Assembly (NCBI GenBank): GCA_003202005.1
Contig: QJJF01000003.1
Location: forward strand, 434,001 to 498,000
Direction of reading: 5' to 3'
From: Williamsia faeni
GTDB lineage: Bacteria; Actinomycetota; Actinomycetes; Mycobacteriales; Mycobacteriaceae
Length of the DNA: 64,000 nt
The translations under genes and the position numbers were made by a program. Each line of letters opens with the position of its first letter. Position 1 is the first letter of the stretch. Under the pieces are notes generated by a model that worked only from the letters and a program-made list of their open reading frames with translations, did no database searches and was not told where the DNA came from. Of the stretch, positions 1,933 to 63,078 are shown piece by piece.

Positions 1933-2754
1933 GTGCTTTTGAATCAGCAGGCAGGACGCAACCGCGGACGCTTCACCAAGGCCTCCACCGGCCGTGGCGT
2001 CCGCCGAGCAGTCACGGCTGTGGCGATCGCTGCCACCGCGGCACTGGCGGTGCCGGCTGTTTCGTCCGCTGACCCCGCCCCCTTTCCTCCCATACCCAAG
2101 AACCTCAAGATCGATGAGACGACCCTGAAGTCATTCGGCGCGTTCGTGCCGGCGATCATCGGGTCGGCAGCCACCCCCGGCCCGGACGGCAAGGTCGACG
2201 CCAGCCTGCTCTCCAACGCCAAGGTGCTCGCCGCAGATACCGCTCTACCGCCGGAAATCCAGGCGATCTGGGACAAGGTTGTCAGCTTCCTCGACGGCTC
2301 CGGTGGCGGCGGACCCGACATTCCATCGGGCCCGGGCGCGCCGGTCATCCAGCAGTTCCTCTACCCGACCATCGGCCAGGGCTGCATCCCCGGCGGCAAT
2401 TCCGTCGGTTCCGCACTGGTGACCGCCGGACCGCAGCAGGCACCCGCGCCCGGCCCCAAGACGGGTGAGGCCGGCTACGTGTACACCAGCCTGGGCACCG
2501 GCCCGGCGCTGAACAACGACGCCGCTCCGCTCACCGTCGCCTGGATCAATATCGACACCGGGGCCACGGGCCAGCAGAACCTGCGTCGCAATCCCTTGAT
2601 CAACGCCAAAGAAGGACCAGGCACCTTCACCACGATCGTGAAAACCGGTAAGGGTCGTGTGATTTCGGCGATCTACGGGAACGTGACCACCAACATCCAG
2701 GGTAATACCGTGAGCTGCACGATCGTCCCCACTGTCGGACTGGCAGTCATCTAG
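1933..2754 (+). CDS. Secreted protein of unknown function, nocardioform family
   Basis: 273 residues starting at GTG 1933, with AGGA 5 bases upstream. A long basic N-terminus is followed by a hydrophobic stretch and an Ala-x-Ala-like cleavage region (…VSSADPAP), so it should be exported. The mature part has a Pro/Gly-rich linker and a C-terminal region with two Cys, one in QGCIPGG and one in VSCTIVP, that could form a disulfide. The motif VAWINIDTG recurs as VAWFNIDTF in the next gene, so the two are paralogues. I do not recognise a function. A strong terminator follows at 2773. Confidence 0.75.
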   Translation: MLLNQQAGRNRGRFTKASTGRGVRRAVTAVAIAATAALAVPAVSSADPAPFPPIPKNLKIDETTLKSFGAFVPAIIGSAATPGPDGKVDASLLSNAKVLAADTALPPEIQAIWDKVVSFLDGSGGGGPDIPSGPGAPVIQQFLYPTIGQGCIPGGNSVGSALVTAGPQQAPAPGPKTGEAGYVYTSLGTGPALNNDAAPLTVAWINIDTGATGQQNLRRNPLINAKEGPGTFTTIVKTGKGRVISAIYGNVTTNIQGNTVSCTIVPTVGLAVI

Positions 2755-2772
2755 CCACCGCGTACTCCACAG

Positions 2773-2804
2773 CAGGCGTCGACCTTCCGGTCGGCGCCTG
2801 TTTT
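2773..2804 (+). terminator. Rho-independent terminator
   Basis: A 12-bp stem (arms CAGGCGTCGACC and GGTCGGCGCCTG, one G-U pair) with a TTCC loop and a T run. It lies 19 bases after the stop of the first secreted-protein gene, so the second secreted-protein gene needs its own promoter. Confidence 0.8.
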
Positions 2805-2952
2805 GTGTTGTCCAGAGCACACTTCGGATCGCCCCAGATCCGTTGATGCACAGTCGAACAGCGAAACGATCGCGGTTGCGTCACAGGTTGAACTCACAAC
2901 TTGCATACGCCTCCGGCGCCGTGGTCTTGTGTACCAAGAGCAACATTGGCCA

Positions 2953-2976
2953 CATCTGTCACATTTGTAACAGATG
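2953..2976. promoter_or_regulatory. Palindrome with MtrA-like direct repeat
   Basis: Outer arms CATCTGT (2953-2959) and ACAGATG (2970-2976) form an inverted repeat. Inside it GTCACATTT (2958-2966) and GTAACAGAT (2967-2975) form a 9-bp-phased direct repeat of GTNAC, the arrangement reported for MtrA sites in mycobacteria. It lies 29-52 bases before the ATG of the secreted-protein gene at 3005, so it would overlap the promoter. Binding is not shown. Confidence 0.5.
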
Positions 2977-3004
2977 GGACCACAGCGTCTGTCCAAGGAG
3001 ATCC

Positions 3005-3904
3005 ATGCCCAGCTCAACGATGATCCGCCGCAGCGCCGCAGCCCTGGCGGTCGGTTTGTCTGCCGCCCTGCTGACCCCGGCCATGGCACTGGCTGCACCG
3101 GTCGCACCCGACGCGGTCACCGTGACCGCACCGGCGCAGACCCCGGGCAACGACGCACTCAAGGCCGCGATCGCCGCGCTCACCAGGTCGGCAGTCGATC
3201 CTGCTGCCCTCGCCGCCGCGAAGGCACTCCTGAGCGGCACACCGCAGATCGAGTCCACACCGGCCGCAGAGATCACTGCCACGCCGGCGGCCGACGCCAC
3301 CGACTTTGCGGCGTCACTCGCCGCAGCCGATGCTGCGCTGGAGAAGTTGGGCATCCAATCCTTCATCAACCCCTCCGTCGCCTTCAACTGCGTCGCGCCC
3401 ACCGAGGAGAATCCGTTCGGACTCGTTCCGGCCGTCGGCGGTGCCGCACCGGGTCCGTATGTCATCCCGGGCCTGAAGGTTCCGGAGTTTCTGAAGCCCT
3501 TTCTCCCGGCGGGTTTCTCGCCCGAGCTGGTCGGCGACGGTGAAACCCTGTTCGGATTCGTCCCGGCAGGGATCACCGCAGACGGTGGGGGCACCGGCAT
3601 GCAGGTCGCCTGGTTCAACATCGACACCTTCAAAGGTGGTTTTGTCGACATGGCGCCGGTCGGCACCACGATCACCGACCAGCTGATCAAGCAGGTGAAG
3701 AAGGTCAGGAATCTCAGCCCCACCGAAGAAGCCACTGCTCGCGCCGTCATCAGCCCCCTGGCAAAGGCATTTGACCTGCCCGGCGCCCGTCTCGCACCGG
3801 TCGCGACCGGTAACGGCACCGTGCTGTCGGCTGTCTTCGGCACCGTGCAGAACGGTGACCGCAGTTGTTTCTTCCTCCCGATGATCGGGATCACTCAGGT
3901 TTAG
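3005..3904 (+). CDS. Secreted protein of unknown function, paralogue of the preceding one
   Basis: 299 residues from ATG 3005, which has a near-perfect AAGGAG 5 bases upstream; an upstream in-frame ATG at 2843 would read through the promoter palindrome and is rejected. The N-terminus (MPSSTMIRRSAAALAV…) is a Sec signal ending near ALAAPVAP. An Ala-rich helical region follows, then a domain with Cys in AFNCVAP and in DRSCFFL near the C-terminus, matching the Cys layout of the upstream paralogue. Another secreted protein follows 34 bases downstream and may be co-transcribed. Function unknown. Confidence 0.75.
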   Translation: MPSSTMIRRSAAALAVGLSAALLTPAMALAAPVAPDAVTVTAPAQTPGNDALKAAIAALTRSAVDPAALAAAKALLSGTPQIESTPAAEITATPAADATDFAASLAAADAALEKLGIQSFINPSVAFNCVAPTEENPFGLVPAVGGAAPGPYVIPGLKVPEFLKPFLPAGFSPELVGDGETLFGFVPAGITADGGGTGMQVAWFNIDTFKGGFVDMAPVGTTITDQLIKQVKKVRNLSPTEEATARAVISPLAKAFDLPGARLAPVATGNGTVLSAVFGTVQNGDRSCFFLPMIGITQV

Positions 3905-56443: not shown

Positions 56444-57322
56444 ATGAACTTCACCGAAATCTCCTATGAGGTGGTGGACAGGGTCGCGACCGTGACCCTG
56501 GACAGGCCTGACCGGTTGAACGCGTTCACCACAACGATGATGCACGAACTGGCCTCCGCCTACGTGGCCGCCGACCTCGACGACGATGTGCGTGTGGTTG
56601 TCGTGACGGGCCGCGATCGGGCCTTCTGTGCCGGGGCGGACCTGAGCGCGGGGGCCAATGTGTTCGGCCCGAACGCAAAAGCGGTGGAGCGAGCGAGCAT
56701 CGGAACGATCGGCGGCGCGCCGCGGGACGGTGGCGGGGTGGCCGCTCTGACCTCTGCTGCTTGCCGAAAACCGGTGATCGCGGCCATCAACGGCCCTGCC
56801 ATTGGTGTGGGCGTCACGATGACTTTGCCGATGGATATCCGGCTGGCGTCAGAATCAGCCAAGTTCGGATTTGTGTTCGCTCGCCGGGGCCTGGTCCCGG
56901 AGGCGGCTTCGAGTTGGTTCCTGCCGCGGATCGTCGGAATCTCGCAGGCCATCGAGTGGGTGGCGACGGGCAGAATCTTCGGCGCGGAAGAAGCCCTCGC
57001 CGGCCGCCTGATTTCGAAGATTCTTCCGCCAGAGGATCTACTCCCCCACGCATATTCGCTTGCGCGCGAGATCGCGGACAACACCTCGGCCGTCTCTGTC
57101 GGGGTGGCCAAACAGATGCTGTGGTCGATGCTCGGTGAGGACTCACCGTGGGCAGGGCATCGGGCCGACTCGCGGGCGATGCGTCATCTCGGTGCGAGCG
57201 CTGACGGGCGAGAGGGCGTGGAGTCCTTCCTGGAGAAGCGCGCCCCGGACTTCCCGGACACCATCACTGCCAACTACCCCGACATGGAGCGCTGGCCCAC
57301 CCGACCGAATGACATGGGCTGA
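56444..57322 (+). CDS. Enoyl-CoA hydratase/isomerase (crotonase) family protein
   Basis: 292 residues. VATVTLDRPDRLNAFTTTM, VVVVTGRDRAFCAGADLSAG (classic oxyanion segment), KPVIAAINGPAIGVGVTMTL and FVFARRGLVPEAASSWFLPR with the expected Glu. Unlike the crotonase at 47497, both key regions are intact, so hydratase or isomerase activity is likely. The start at ATG 56444 has no good ribosome site. Likely one unit with the mycofactocin-type SDR 74 bases downstream. Confidence 0.87.
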   Translation: MNFTEISYEVVDRVATVTLDRPDRLNAFTTTMMHELASAYVAADLDDDVRVVVVTGRDRAFCAGADLSAGANVFGPNAKAVERASIGTIGGAPRDGGGVAALTSAACRKPVIAAINGPAIGVGVTMTLPMDIRLASESAKFGFVFARRGLVPEAASSWFLPRIVGISQAIEWVATGRIFGAEEALAGRLISKILPPEDLLPHAYSLAREIADNTSAVSVGVAKQMLWSMLGEDSPWAGHRADSRAMRHLGASADGREGVESFLEKRAPDFPDTITANYPDMERWPTRPNDMG

Positions 57323-57396
57323 CGGACTGAGCATCTCCGCAGCATCTCGATCACCTCTCCCATCGCTGGACAATTGGAAATGAAAGGTTTAGGTGA

Positions 57397-58239
57397 ATGA
57401 TGACTGGACGAATGGCCGGCAAAGTTGCCTTCATCACCGGAGCTGCACGCGGACAAGGACGCAGCCACGCAGTGCGAATGGCACAGGAAGGTGCCGACAT
57501 CATTGCCGTCGACATCTGCGGGCCGGTAATCGCCGACAGCCCGACGCCGTATTCCACACCCGAGGATCTCCTCGAAACCGCCGACCTGGTCAAAGGCCTG
57601 AACCGCCGAATCGTCACAGCCGAAGTCGATGTGCGGGACTATGCCGCCCTCAAATCCGCCGTCGACAGTGGCGTCGAGCAACTCGGGCGGCTCGACGTGA
57701 TCGTGGCCAACGCCGGCTTCGGCACGGGCGGCGTAACGCTGGAGAACGTCAGCGAGAGCGACTGGGACGACATCATCGGCGTGAACTTGTCGGGCGTGTG
57801 GAAGACTGTGAAAGCCGGTGTACCACACCTGAAATCGGGCGGACGGGGTGGATCAATCATCTTGACGAGCTCAGTCGGCGGACTCAAGGCCTACGCGAAC
57901 ACCGGGCACTACATCGCATCCAAGCACGGTGTGGTCGGCCTCATGCGCGCCTTCGCCGTCGAACTCGGGGAATACTCGATCCGCGTCAACTCAGTTCATC
58001 CGACCAACGTGAACACACCGATGTTCATGAACGACTACACAATGAAGTGGTTCCGGCCGGATCTCGAGAACCCCGGAATCGACGACCTCAAGGTCGTCGC
58101 ACAAACGATGCACGTGCTGCCGATCGGTTGGGTCGAGGCCGAAGACATCAGCAACGCAGTGCTGTTCCTGGCATCCGACGAAGCCCGGTTCATCACGGGT
58201 ACCACGCTCGCCGTCGACGGCGGCAGCACGCTCAAATAA
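57397..58239 (+). CDS. Mycofactocin-coupled SDR family oxidoreductase
   Basis: 280 residues (ATG 57397, or ATG 57400 with AGG 6 bases upstream). MAGKVAFITGAARGQGRSHA, then the long insertion after beta-2 (IAVDICGPVIADSPTPYS, EDLLETADLV) that marks mycofactocin-dependent dehydrogenases with non-exchangeable NAD. VANAGFG, LTSSVGGLK and HYIASKHGVVGL are intact, as is the closing FITGTTLAVDGGSTL. Oxidises an alcohol on the island substrate and passes electrons to mycofactocin, whose synthesis genes are not in the window. A terminator follows. Confidence 0.9.
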   Translation: MMTGRMAGKVAFITGAARGQGRSHAVRMAQEGADIIAVDICGPVIADSPTPYSTPEDLLETADLVKGLNRRIVTAEVDVRDYAALKSAVDSGVEQLGRLDVIVANAGFGTGGVTLENVSESDWDDIIGVNLSGVWKTVKAGVPHLKSGGRGGSIILTSSVGGLKAYANTGHYIASKHGVVGLMRAFAVELGEYSIRVNSVHPTNVNTPMFMNDYTMKWFRPDLENPGIDDLKVVAQTMHVLPIGWVEAEDISNAVLFLASDEARFITGTTLAVDGGSTLK

Positions 58240-58254
58240 GACACAGCCCTACCC

Positions 58255-58298
58255 CCGAGCCGCGCAGCAGATCTCAATCAGCTGCGCGGCTCGGCTTT
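58255..58298 (+). terminator. Rho-independent terminator
   Basis: 14-bp perfect stem CCGAGCCGCGCAGC / GCTGCGCGGCTCGG (58255-58268, 58281-58294), 12-base loop, then CTTTT. It ends the crotonase/SDR unit. Confidence 0.9.
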
Positions 58299-58419
58299 TG
58301 GCTGGTGTTGCGTTTCACTGTCGCGCTATCAATACCCGTCGTTACCCAACGAACCGAGACATCCGTGCACGGTTGAGAGGCGTCACGGTCCCCGCTGATC
58401 AGGTGACGGCACAGTCACA

Positions 58420-58579
58420 GCACCACCGCCGAGCGTGCCGAAATAACCGCTGAGCGTGCCGTCGTTACCGTTGAGCGTACCGAAAGTGATTGCGCACCAG
58501 GATTTTCGGCACGGTGGGCGGTGATTTCGGCACGGTCGACGGTTGGATCGGCACGCTCGGCGGTTCGCGGCGGTGGTGC
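58420..58579. repeat. Phased palindromic repeat array (3 + 3 inverted units)
   Basis: Three direct 16-bp units, consensus ACCGYYGAGCGTRCCG, at 58425-58440, 58446-58461 and 58467-58482, with 5-base spacers (21-bp pitch). After a 24-base centre come three inverted units at 58507-58522, 58528-58543 and 58549-58564, again on a 21-bp pitch. The outermost pair is a perfect match, and the homology extends outwards (GCACCACCGCC 58420-58430 with its complement 58569-58579). It lies in a convergent intergenic region next to a separate terminator. No gene is supported here; open frames across it only translate the repeat. Confidence 0.9.
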
Positions 58580-58593
58580 CCGCAGTACTTCTA

Positions 58594-60180
58594 TCAGCTC
58601 TTTTGAGCCATGTCGAGCGCGGCGATGTACGCGAATGCCATCGACGAACCGATCGGACCACCGGCACCGGGGTAGATTCGCCCGGTAACCGGAGCCATCG
58701 TGTTTCCTGATGCATACAGGCCCGCGATCACCGAGCCGTCCGGCCGGACGACGCGCGCATGGTCGTCGGTCTTGAGACCACCCTTGGTCCCCAGATCAGA
58801 CAACACGATCTTCGCCGCATAGAACGGCCCCTGATCTATCACGCCCAAACACGGATTGGGGCCGTCAGTGTGAGCGCCGCCCAGGTACACGGTCATCAGA
58901 TCCCACGGAGCCTCGCCGCGACCGAAGTCCTCATCCTTTCCGGTGCGGGCATAACCGTTGTACTGATCGACAGTCTTCGTCAGTGCCCCAGCCGGGACAC
59001 CGATCAGCTCTGCAAGCTCATCCAAGGTATCGGCCCGGTGCAATACCCCGGCGGCGATGAACTTTTCGACATCAAACCAACCCGGAACGTCCGGCGCGAC
59101 CGGCAGCGCCGCCGCGAAAGCACTTTCGTTGTCGATTTGACGCTGATCGAACACCCAGTGCGTCGGCAACGGCGAAGCGTCAGAAGTCCTGTGTGCCTTG
59201 AGCATCTCGTGCCCGGCCCGATCGTACGGCAGCCGCTCATTCATGTAACGCTGACCGGCAGCGTTGACCCAGATCCCACTCCACACCGATGTATAGAACA
59301 CCGGGCGCGTGTCGGGAACGACCAGACCGGGCGCGAACCACGACTCCTCGAGTAGGTCGGTCGCGGCACCGATGTCGATGCCTGCAGTCAGAGCATCCCC
59401 GGTGTTCCCCTCACAACCCTGAGTCCACTCATCACCGATCTCGGGCTGGTACTTCCGTCGCAGCTCGGCATTTCGCTCGTATCCGCCCGCCGCGAGGATC
59501 ACTCCCTTGCCGGCGCGGAACGTCACCGGCTCACCATTACTCGAGGCTTGCACTCCGACCACGGCGCCGTCTTCGACGATGAGCCGCTCGAGCCCGGTGT
59601 TCGTCAGGACGGTGCCGTTGCCGGTCTCCATGAATGCCAGCAGTGCGCGCCCGATGAGGGCCTGCCCACCGACCATCGTCGACTCGACGTCAACACCCCA
59701 ACGCTCAGTCCACAGCGGCCTACGTACCAACGGCTCCAGATCGCCGAGTTCACCGCGGTCGAAGTCCTGCGGGAAAATCGTTCGTCCCCCCGGCAGTGCG
59801 CCCGGCTGCCCCGCGAAGTAGTCGGGAACACCCAGGAACTGGAACTCTCCGAACCTGGGGTTCTTCTCCAGTTCCTCGATCATCGCAGGCCCGGCCTGCA
59901 GAAAAGCCTCGCGTAGCGAGGCAGGCGAGTCATCTCCGACGATCGCATCCAAATACAGACGCGCCCCATCGCGAGTGTCCGGCAACCCCGCCCGCTGCTC
60001 AGCAGCATTCCCCGGCAACCACATTCCCGCACCCGAATACGAGGTGGTACCACCGACAAACTCTGTCTTCTCGATGACCAACGTCCGCAGGCCGCGTGCT
60101 GCCGCCGCGTACGCACCGATCAAACCTCCACCCGAACCCACGACAATTACGTCGTACAAATCAGCTGCATTCTCACTCAT
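58594..60180 (-). CDS. 3-ketosteroid-delta1-dehydrogenase-like flavoprotein
   Basis: 528 residues. VIVVGSGGGLIGAYAAAARG, GGTTSYSGAGMWLPG, VPDYFAGQPG, NERLPYDRAGHEM, QGPFYAAKIVLSDLGTKGGL and TGRIYPGAGGPIGSS follow KstD in order. The Tyr of PYD and of FYAA and the closing Gly-rich segment are kept; the first Tyr region reads DYF, so one Tyr remains there. Close paralogue of the protein at 40434. It should introduce a double bond next to a ring ketone, with FAD and an external acceptor. Co-oriented with, and just downstream of, the VOC gene. Confidence 0.87.
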   Translation of the reverse strand: MSENAADLYDVIVVGSGGGLIGAYAAAARGLRTLVIEKTEFVGGTTSYSGAGMWLPGNAAEQRAGLPDTRDGARLYLDAIVGDDSPASLREAFLQAGPAMIEELEKNPRFGEFQFLGVPDYFAGQPGALPGGRTIFPQDFDRGELGDLEPLVRRPLWTERWGVDVESTMVGGQALIGRALLAFMETGNGTVLTNTGLERLIVEDGAVVGVQASSNGEPVTFRAGKGVILAAGGYERNAELRRKYQPEIGDEWTQGCEGNTGDALTAGIDIGAATDLLEESWFAPGLVVPDTRPVFYTSVWSGIWVNAAGQRYMNERLPYDRAGHEMLKAHRTSDASPLPTHWVFDQRQIDNESAFAAALPVAPDVPGWFDVEKFIAAGVLHRADTLDELAELIGVPAGALTKTVDQYNGYARTGKDEDFGRGEAPWDLMTVYLGGAHTDGPNPCLGVIDQGPFYAAKIVLSDLGTKGGLKTDDHARVVRPDGSVIAGLYASGNTMAPVTGRIYPGAGGPIGSSMAFAYIAALDMAQKS

Positions 60181-61619: not shown

Positions 61620-61650
61620 CAGTGGGTCTTGGGGATGGAGATCGACTTTG

Positions 61651-63078
61651 ATGACAATCTCAGAGGGGGACGTGCCGGGTTCGGTGGCGCCGCAAAAACT
61701 CGCGGCCCAAGTTGCCCGACAGCTCGAGAACGAGATCATGGATCGTAAATGGCCGATCGGCGAGGTCCTCGGATCAGAAACCGATCTGCAGGCGCGTTTC
61801 AAGGTGTCGCGATCGATTCTGAGGGAAGCGATCCGGTTACTCGAGCACCAGCAGGTCGCCAGAATGCGACGTGGCCCCGGTGGCGGGCTCGTCGTCAGTG
61901 CGCCCGACACCTCGTTGCCCATTCGCGCCCTCGTGATCTATCTCGAATACATCGGGGTGAGTGTCGAGGACCTGGGACGGGCCCGGATGCTTCTGGAGCC
62001 ATTGGCGGCCAGACTGGCCGCCGAGACCGTCACCGAGTCGAGTATCGACGCTCTTCGCGCCATCGTGAACGAAGAGCACGCGAGAATCGCTGATTCGTCC
62101 ATTGCCTCCGGCAAAGATTTCCACGCAATGTTGGGCCAGTTGTCGGGAAATGCCTTGTTGCAGATGTTCACCGAAGTCGTGACAGGTTTGAGCACCCGCT
62201 ACTTGCAAACTTCACGACGTATCGCGGAAGGCGCCGCGCGCGAGGCCAGGACTCACGTCGCCAACCGGCATTCCGAAATCGTCGAAGCAGTGATTGCCGG
62301 TGACGGCGCAGCCGCGCAGACCCGTGTGACGACTCACCTCGAAGAGGTCATTACATGGATGTTGGCCCAGAAGATTCATCCCAAAGTCGAGCGAATGCGC
62401 ACCCGGCCAGTGGATCCCGACCCGAAGTCGGGAGACAAACTCGCCGAGATCGTCGCCGGCCGCATACACAACGACATCACCACCGAAGACTGGCAGGTTG
62501 GTGAGATCCTCGGATCGGAATCGGACCTACTGACCCGTTACGGCGTCAGCCGTGCGGTCCTTCGAGAATCCCTCCAGATCCTCGAACACCACAGCGTTGC
62601 CCGAATGCGACGCGGGCCGGGTGGTGGATTGGTCATTCTGGCCCCCGACCCCACAGCAAATATCCGCGCGATGGCCCTCTACCTCAACTACCGGGGATTG
62701 AGTCCTGACGACCTCTTCGTGGTCCATGAGGCCATCGCCCTGGAATGTGTCCACACACTCACCGCCGGTGAGCTCTCCCCCGACACGGCCTCCCGCCTTC
62801 GCGAGGCACTCGATCTTTCGACTGAGCAGGGTGACTCCGGTGACCTGTTCCACACCGAGATCGCCGAGCTGGCGGGTAACCCGATCCTGTCACTGTTCCT
62901 GCGGATCACCACGGAACTCCGAGCCCGCAACGGCCTCAGCGATAAAGCAAGAAGTGCTCAGGGTGCATCCGATGTTCGCGATGCCCACGAGAAGATACTC
63001 GTCGCCGTCCTCGCCGGCGATGAGGGGCTCGCCCAGCACCGCATGCGCCGGCACCTCCAGGATCTCGCCACTTGGTGA
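61651..63078 (+). CDS. Tandem double FadR-type GntR regulator
   Basis: 475 residues from ATG 61651 (a TTG three bases earlier is also in frame). Two complete wHTH-FCD units. Unit 1 (~1-240): FKVSRSILREAIRLLEHQQV, RRGPGGGLVVSAPD, FCD with FHAMLGQLSGNALLQ. Unit 2 (~255-475): YGVSRAVLRESLQILEHHSV, RRGPGGGLVILAPD, FHTEIAELAGNPILSL. The units are alike along their full length, so this is an internal duplication that makes one chain behave like a dimer. It resembles M. tuberculosis Rv3060c, as I recall it. Likely controls part of the island. Confidence 0.9.
   Translation: MTISEGDVPGSVAPQKLAAQVARQLENEIMDRKWPIGEVLGSETDLQARFKVSRSILREAIRLLEHQQVARMRRGPGGGLVVSAPDTSLPIRALVIYLEYIGVSVEDLGRARMLLEPLAARLAAETVTESSIDALRAIVNEEHARIADSSIASGKDFHAMLGQLSGNALLQMFTEVVTGLSTRYLQTSRRIAEGAAREARTHVANRHSEIVEAVIAGDGAAAQTRVTTHLEEVITWMLAQKIHPKVERMRTRPVDPDPKSGDKLAEIVAGRIHNDITTEDWQVGEILGSESDLLTRYGVSRAVLRESLQILEHHSVARMRRGPGGGLVILAPDPTANIRAMALYLNYRGLSPDDLFVVHEAIALECVHTLTAGELSPDTASRLREALDLSTEQGDSGDLFHTEIAELAGNPILSLFLRITTELRARNGLSDKARSAQGASDVRDAHEKILVAVLAGDEGLAQHRMRRHLQDLATW

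Follow-up and report, generated by a model that had tools for sequence, protein, structure and literature searches.

Dispersed arrays of a 21-bp repeat at gene ends in Williamsia, with a centre spacing that follows the DNA helical repeat

REPs are found downstream of genes, between convergent or unidirectional ORFs, and their unit is a palindrome of 20-40 bp able to form a hairpin (PMC3733652). In E. coli, BIME-2 elements are targets of DNA gyrase, whose motif there shows a phased 10-bp variation in G/C; the enzyme gathers further downstream of termination sites, with an attraction that is apparently not hard-wired (PMC6379681). According to a 2008 survey, inverted uptake signals can form terminator hairpins (PMC2267715). 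The arrays that we describe here resemble the REP and BIME repeats of E. coli and Pseudomonas (GTAG and CGTC super-families) in being high-copy and intergenic, in occurring as inverted pairs, and in their location 3' of genes, convergent gaps included. Plasmid iterons and rDNA terminator boxes are tandem, phased and directional sites of a DNA-binding protein, with known proteins and few loci; our arrays are likewise tandem, phased and directional, but they occupy many loci and their protein is putative. Finally, the RNIE paper reportedly describes the TRIT terminator motif of M. tuberculosis as a dispersed 3'-end motif within the same bacterial family, a description that resembles that of the arrays.

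The window that we analysed is a 64,000-nucleotide stretch of contig QJJF01000003.1 of Williamsia faeni, in which an original prediction, made from the letters alone, had placed six copies of a repeat, three direct and then three inverted, spaced at exactly 21 bp. We confirmed this array at 58425-58566 (Table 1), the direct copies starting at 58425, 58446 and 58467 and the inverted ones at 58504, 58525 and 58546. The outermost 15-base cores are identical, as had been claimed. Regarding the homology said to extend into the flanks, a perfect inverted repeat does surround the array, but it is offset from the register of the units by around 10 bp. The array begins 186 nt from the stop codon of the short-chain dehydrogenase gene, and the stop of the FAD-binding oxidoreductase gene is 30 nt from its right arm. 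Both exclusions made by the prediction hold: the array is not the operon terminator, a separate hairpin (arms of 18 nt, 94% complementarity), and it is not a CRISPR, as its spacers measure 5-6 nt and its halves are inverted, whereas CRISPR repeats lie on the same strand with unique spacers of about the repeat length. Eight occurrences of the 15-mer CCGNNGASCGTGCCG at 0-1 mismatch were found in the window, six of them within the array. Its 24-nt centre has the commonest length in the family (27 of 65 double arrays in Williamsia). An Rfam search of positions 57000-60000 gave one match, whose 18.5 bits lie below the cut-off of 97, so that no family was reached, and literature searches gave no description of this repeat element. 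Further along the window, positions 61648-63078 (plus strand) encode a regulator of 476 aa in which a GntR/FCD protein is duplicated and fused, with both the GntR and the FCD domain present twice in tandem.

Table 1. Features of the array and its surroundings (positions in the window)
Feature	Position	Strand	Remark
Short-chain dehydrogenase gene, left convergent	57397..58239	+	PF13561
Terminator-like hairpin, T-rich sequence after	58255..58294	+	downstream of plus gene, apart from array
Flanking perfect inverted repeat, 12 nt	58420..58431 / 58568-58579	.	off the register of the units
Left (direct) arm, unit 1 core	58426..58440	+	0 mismatches to CCGNNGASCGTGCCG
Left arm, unit 2 core	58447..58461	+	0 mismatches to CCGNNGASCGTGCCG
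Left arm, unit 3 core	58468..58482	+	1 mismatch to CCGNNGASCGTGCCG
Centre between arms, 24 nt	58483..58506	.	gap measured between 15-bp cores
Right (inverted) arm, unit 1 core, inner	58507..58521	-	1 mismatch to CCGNNGASCGTGCCG
Right arm, unit 2 core	58528..58542	-	0 mismatches to CCGNNGASCGTGCCG
Right arm, unit 3 core, outer	58549..58563	-	0 mismatches to CCGNNGASCGTGCCG
FAD-binding oxidoreductase gene, right convergent	58594..60180	-	PF00890

This array turned out not to be a sole copy, and related arrays occur in sister species; the refuting outcome named by the prediction did not arise. A two-unit pattern with at most 3 mismatches gave 379 matches in the host genome (5.52 Mb) and 0 for the reversed control. 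Eight congeners gave 76, 115, 85, 80, 0, 9, 67 and 112 matches, the one with none being G005, and 52 genomes outside the genus showed 0-5 each, with one exception at 13. An exact scan of contigs returned 33 stretches: 23 from records named Williamsia, 6 from one named Kitasatospora arboriphila NRRL B-24581 and 4 from others. The Kitasatospora-named record looks like a probable mislabelled Williamsia genome (congener G008). In a second genus of the family, g18, matches to CGAGCGTGC..CGAGCGTGC with free spacing were present in all eight sampled genomes, ranging from 2 to 50 per genome, while the reversed control gave 0 in seven of them and 3 in one. Across 44 g18 loci from four genomes (six G023 loci omitted), the core is that of Williamsia, same-strand distances are mostly 21 bp (69 pairs) or 22 bp (76 pairs), and the centre between inverted arms is either as long as in Williamsia or longer by additional units. 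An order-wide scan found a match in 58 of 397 genomes, with 199 in the host, 53 in one g18 member and 1-7 in the others, the reversed control reaching up to 4, in one genome. The compact pair GAGCGTGC..GCACGCTC showed no enrichment in other genera, and a term search of the main text of a 2025 REP survey (PMC12306157) found neither Williamsia nor Tsukamurella. As separate observations, CGAGCGTGC recurs every 20 bp in arrays on three G475 (g29) contigs and forms a tandem repeat of 17 bp in G135 (g22).

The anatomy of the unit was studied in 1.65 Mb of host sequence (contig C1 and the first 300 kb of C3, together 1.58 Mb, plus the window). Same-strand distances of 21, 42, 63, 84 and 105 bp were shared by 171, 104, 59, 33 and 16 pairs of units, plus-minus distances peaked at 39, 60, 81 and 102, and minus-plus distances showed no peak. 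According to these distances, the arrays consist of inward-facing arms with a variable number of units; some have one arm only, and tandem same-strand arms reach 16 units. The 21-bp repeat is made of CCGYYGASCGKGCC and a short A-rich spacer, and the consensus of 219 units is CCGYYGASCGKGCCSAWMNNR. Positions 3 and 4, left unconstrained in the search, were pyrimidines (C or T) in all 438 cases; A6, G9, G11 and C12 are conserved in 218-219 of the 219 units, and spacer positions 18-19 are almost random. A larger unit set, built with a weight matrix that itself disfavours purines, had a pyrimidine at positions 3-4 in 740 of 742 host cases and 1037 of 1044 cases from other Williamsia, that is, purines in 9 of 1786. 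Units are rarely solitary (4 exact single copies against 251 clustered in the 1.65-Mb sample), which sets them apart from DNA uptake sequences, present as many dispersed single copies. Matches at positions 3 and 7 were more frequent within an arm (0.64) than between facing arms (0.37 and 0.46), as expected from tandem duplication. The A/T content of the unit had an amplitude of 0.221 at 10.5 bp, the strongest of the four periods tested (0.147 at 21, 0.157 at 5.25 and 0.099 at 7 bp). Along one arm, at G000:C1:928219-928317, AACGA spacers take turns with the reverse complement TCGTT, giving a 42-bp higher-order repeat.

One could argue that the arrays are part of a repetitive protein-coding sequence, as 21 bp correspond to seven codons and open frames with heptapeptide repeats do run over some of them (58383-58715 on the minus strand; C1 142483-142683). 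However, codon use does not explain the near absence of purines at positions 3-4 given above, a single array carries arms on both strands, and the 22-bp units of g18 break any frame. The constraint on positions 3-4 and the frame-breaking units led us to reject this reading, which is almost certainly wrong.

The original prediction also had the array fold, as RNA, into one long hairpin, and for this copy it does: its 171-nt RNA reaches -106.5 kcal/mol with a z of -8.3, matched by none of 200 shuffles. An RNA element that terminates transcription both ways or protects mRNA 3' ends would fit this very stable fold, the placement of arrays after stop codons, and a compact hairpin at the orthologous fabH-prfC site of two congeners. 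Similarly, bidirectional intrinsic terminators share with this array a strongly folding palindrome between convergent genes. As a conserved feature, however, we rejected the hairpin. Mirror covariation was absent: among 91 facing and 290 non-facing unit pairs, matches were 0.36 and 0.38 at position 3 (p 0.80) and 0.47 and 0.44 at position 7 (p 0.72). The 42 one-armed arrays with at least 4 units had a mean z of +0.23 for the sense RNA (range -3.9 to +4.0) and -0.69 for the antisense. Canonical terminators were equally common in convergent gaps with or without arrays, at 5 of 32 against 51 of 278 strands in the host and 18 of 114 against 65 of 380 in the pooled gaps; the removal of duplicate arms (retained in 12 of 29 named loci) caused some named loci with an unnamed duplicate to be entered as array-free in the pooled gaps, an error from which the host figure is free. 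A first scan had hinted that arrays take the place of terminators (1 of 25 against 50 of 278 convergent stops, p 0.09), but the whole-gap scan did not, and arrays do not replace ordinary terminators. Moreover, the centre gap follows the helical repeat of DNA. The RNA hairpin thus fails as a general explanation, because covariation is lacking, many arrays are one-armed and those tested are unstructured on average, and we regard an RNA element as very improbable.

Concerning position, gene calls came from a codon-usage script, so that individual cases may be wrong. Among gaps of at least 30 bp, arms were present in 17 of 165 convergent, 11 of 452 codirectional and 1 of 211 divergent ones (convergent against divergent, p 5.6e-6; convergent against codirectional, p 1.1e-4; codirectional against divergent, p 0.12), which agrees with the location that the prediction had proposed to check, convergent gaps. 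In the host sample, the first feature on the 5' side was a sense stop for 52 of 62 arms, 33 of these 52 lying within 60 nt, and an antisense start for 9 of 62. A sense stop also lay on the 5' side of 40 of 52 arms in g18 and of 59 of 77 in other loci, a 77-row set that includes four non-Williamsia records (L063, L071, L084, L086) and counts some loci twice, as named and unnamed. These three proportions are mostly not evidence of orientation, because convergent geometry gives either strand a 5' sense stop; such evidence therefore comes only from codirectional gaps and from arm order. Single arms in codirectional gaps were sense in 23 cases and antisense in 8 (p 0.011), and codirectional gaps with two arms had the sense arm before the antisense one in 11 cases, with 0 in the opposite order. 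In convergent gaps, the first and last arms were plus then minus in 31 cases and minus then plus in 2, so arrays face inward. The idea that every gene owns a sense arm proved too strong, as geometry explains most counts and antisense-only arrays exist. C1:334748 and C1:896795 are apparent exceptions to the positional pattern. In the Kitasatospora-named record L064, a reverse transcriptase gene (2073-3494, PF00078) lies between arrays, and Williamsia muralis L072 has arrays at a matching spacing. L266, L277 and L282 (G007, G008 and G002) each have a DUF559 nuclease gene flanked by inverted arms around 1 kb apart, an arrangement that resembles a transposase gene between its own repeats.

The arrays vary between species, which bears out the variation that the prediction had proposed to look for. 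Downstream of the gene read as tuf, 1 of 9 genomes carries an array, and 20-kb regions around the ortholog of the SNF2-type helicase contained no two in-phase units in the eight congeners. The gap read as fabH-prfC (gene names assigned by eye) carries a sense arm of 3 units in the host, four congeners have an antisense arm only, with 2-3 units, two are two-armed, with 6-8 sense and 6-7 antisense units, and two (L211 in G006, L212 in G005) have a compact 1+1 hairpin, CCACCGAGCGGGCCGCTCGGCGGTGG. The left flank of the compact form is nearly that of the two-armed arrays in G004 and G008, and the hairpin may be an array seed or a collapsed form. Species share sites more often than by chance: among gene ends with an ortholog in the host sample, the host also had an array for 9 of 29 ends that bear one and for 2 of 81 ends that do not (p 8e-5), although some of the 9 are a single host site viewed from several species.

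Rapid turnover of sites and arms is what a selfish, REP-like repeat would show, with units that a transposase or recombination spreads around the genome and that survive best 3' of genes without any host function. High copy number, genus-level patchiness and the greater likeness of units within an arm also fit this reading, and the avoidance of divergent (promoter) gaps fits the removal of harmful inserts. Yet the arrays fail the three REP features that we tested. The unit is not palindromic, as the consensus is not self-complementary and one-armed RNAs are unstructured on average; the consensus CCGYYGASCGKGCCS lacks GTAG and contains CGTC only if its Y positions are T and C; and the RAYT transposase (PF01797) was found in none of nine Williamsia genomes, against 5 of 14 positive control genomes. 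Arms of up to 16 same-strand units and a centre length that changes in helical steps are further differences from REPs and BIMEs. We considered the DUF559 nuclease as mobiliser and rejected it, since its number does not track that of arrays and is similar in G005, which has no two-unit match; beyond the RAYT and DUF559 checks, no other mobiliser was found. Neutral copies would not be expected to keep a helical spacing or two-letter base constraints, and solitary units are scarce. A purely selfish repeat is possible, but we think it unlikely. Among the three functions that had been guessed for the array, the evidence agrees best with a nucleoid-protein or other DNA-binding site and least with an RNA stability element, and a mobile element would have to do without RAYT or another mobiliser.

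An indication of how the unit is read comes from the centre of the arrays. We measured the gap from the last plus core to the first minus core in 65 unique double arrays of Williamsia, counting identical arrays once and leaving out L063, L071, L084 and L086, which lie outside this genus; the set without these four records also underlies the fold, terminator-scan, covariation, A/T-period and shared-site analyses. The spacer between inverted arms varies in sequence and in length (14-118 bp), with a period of 10.4-10.5 bp: the gaps seen were 14-15, 22-25, 34-35, 44-46, 55-56, 65-66, 76-77, 100, 107 and 118. All 65 fall at 1-4 (45 arrays) or 13-16 (20 arrays) modulo 21, two phases around half a unit apart. 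R at 10.5 bp was 0.93 with one array per flank cluster (50 arrays) and 0.88 outside the 23-25 class (25 arrays), where the best period was 10.4. A missed unit shifts the gap by 21 bp and hence cannot produce a 10.5-bp period; it also means that gaps such as 24, 45 and 66 count as one phase, not three. Centres of the second phase have diverse sequences, several with a decayed unit. At orthologous sites of the host and G003, gaps were 24 against 14 and 23 against 55, that is, about 1 and 3 turns apart. The p-values for the centre gap overstate the case, as each length class may stem from few founders, and our argument therefore rests more on these orthologous shifts. Same-strand arms that lie an odd distance apart keep the register loosely (R 0.66; 17 pairs, duplicates among them), and nine outward gaps gave an R of 0.54 (p 0.07). 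What is new here is that the centre spacing between inverted arms follows the DNA helical repeat. The periodic centre and the gap changes of about whole turns make it probable that the unit is recognised as DNA, and from one face. The prediction that all units face one side is upheld by the 21-bp pitch and by the centre period in Williamsia, with the reservation that the g18 pitch of 21 or 22 bp is not strictly two turns, so that the register drifts along long arrays there.

Our preferred explanation, which we hold tentatively although it may well prove right, is a BIME-like boundary or supercoil-management element at gene ends that works as double-stranded DNA through a putative binding protein. 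Each 21-bp unit, CCGYYGASCGKGCC with its A-rich spacer, would be the site of a sequence-specific DNA-binding or DNA-wrapping protein. With units around two turns apart and a centre that steps in helical turns, bound proteins would align on one face of the DNA and form a single patch running through the dyad. Placed after stop codons, mostly between convergent genes, this patch would mark the boundary between transcription units, and it may limit polymerase run-on, gather positive supercoiling as E. coli BIMEs do with gyrase, or both. To the directly observed family, positions, inward order, base constraints, 10.5-bp spacing and absence of RNA covariation, this explanation adds protein binding and a boundary role, both of which we infer. 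Fast turnover, the g18 pitch of 21 or 22 bp, the loose register at odd distances, the terminators that are not replaced and the antisense-only arrays speak against it. The family might be classed as a new variant of dispersed gene-end repeats, BIME-like in its working, for which we do not claim the status of true BIMEs.

A narrower version of the boundary would have DNA gyrase itself bind, the arrays being strong gyrase sites that absorb the positive supercoils of converging transcription. The peak of unit A/T content at 10.5 bp and the convergent location of the arrays are consistent with it, as are the phased G/C motif and the BIME-2 targets reported for the E. coli enzyme (PMC6379681). Nevertheless, the 15-bp core is conserved far more strictly than a bending signal requires, and gyrase in E. 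coli sits further downstream of termination sites, seemingly without being hard-wired there (PMC6379681). We find gyrase itself an improbable ligand.

These results touch on two open questions, how bacteria keep convergent genes apart and whether dispersed repeats have an architectural role at the level of DNA. Comparative sequence separates the DNA and RNA readings in this family, as arm spacing tracks the helical repeat and base pairing between arms is not conserved. The register seems to be kept through the centre of the palindrome while the sequence, and even the arm content, turns over between species. This could reflect a new class of chromatin-like boundaries in bacteria, in which a dedicated DNA-binding protein would assemble on one face of hundreds of gene-end arrays, symmetrically about the dyad, and keep converging transcription units insulated from each other, a proposal that we consider rather doubtful.
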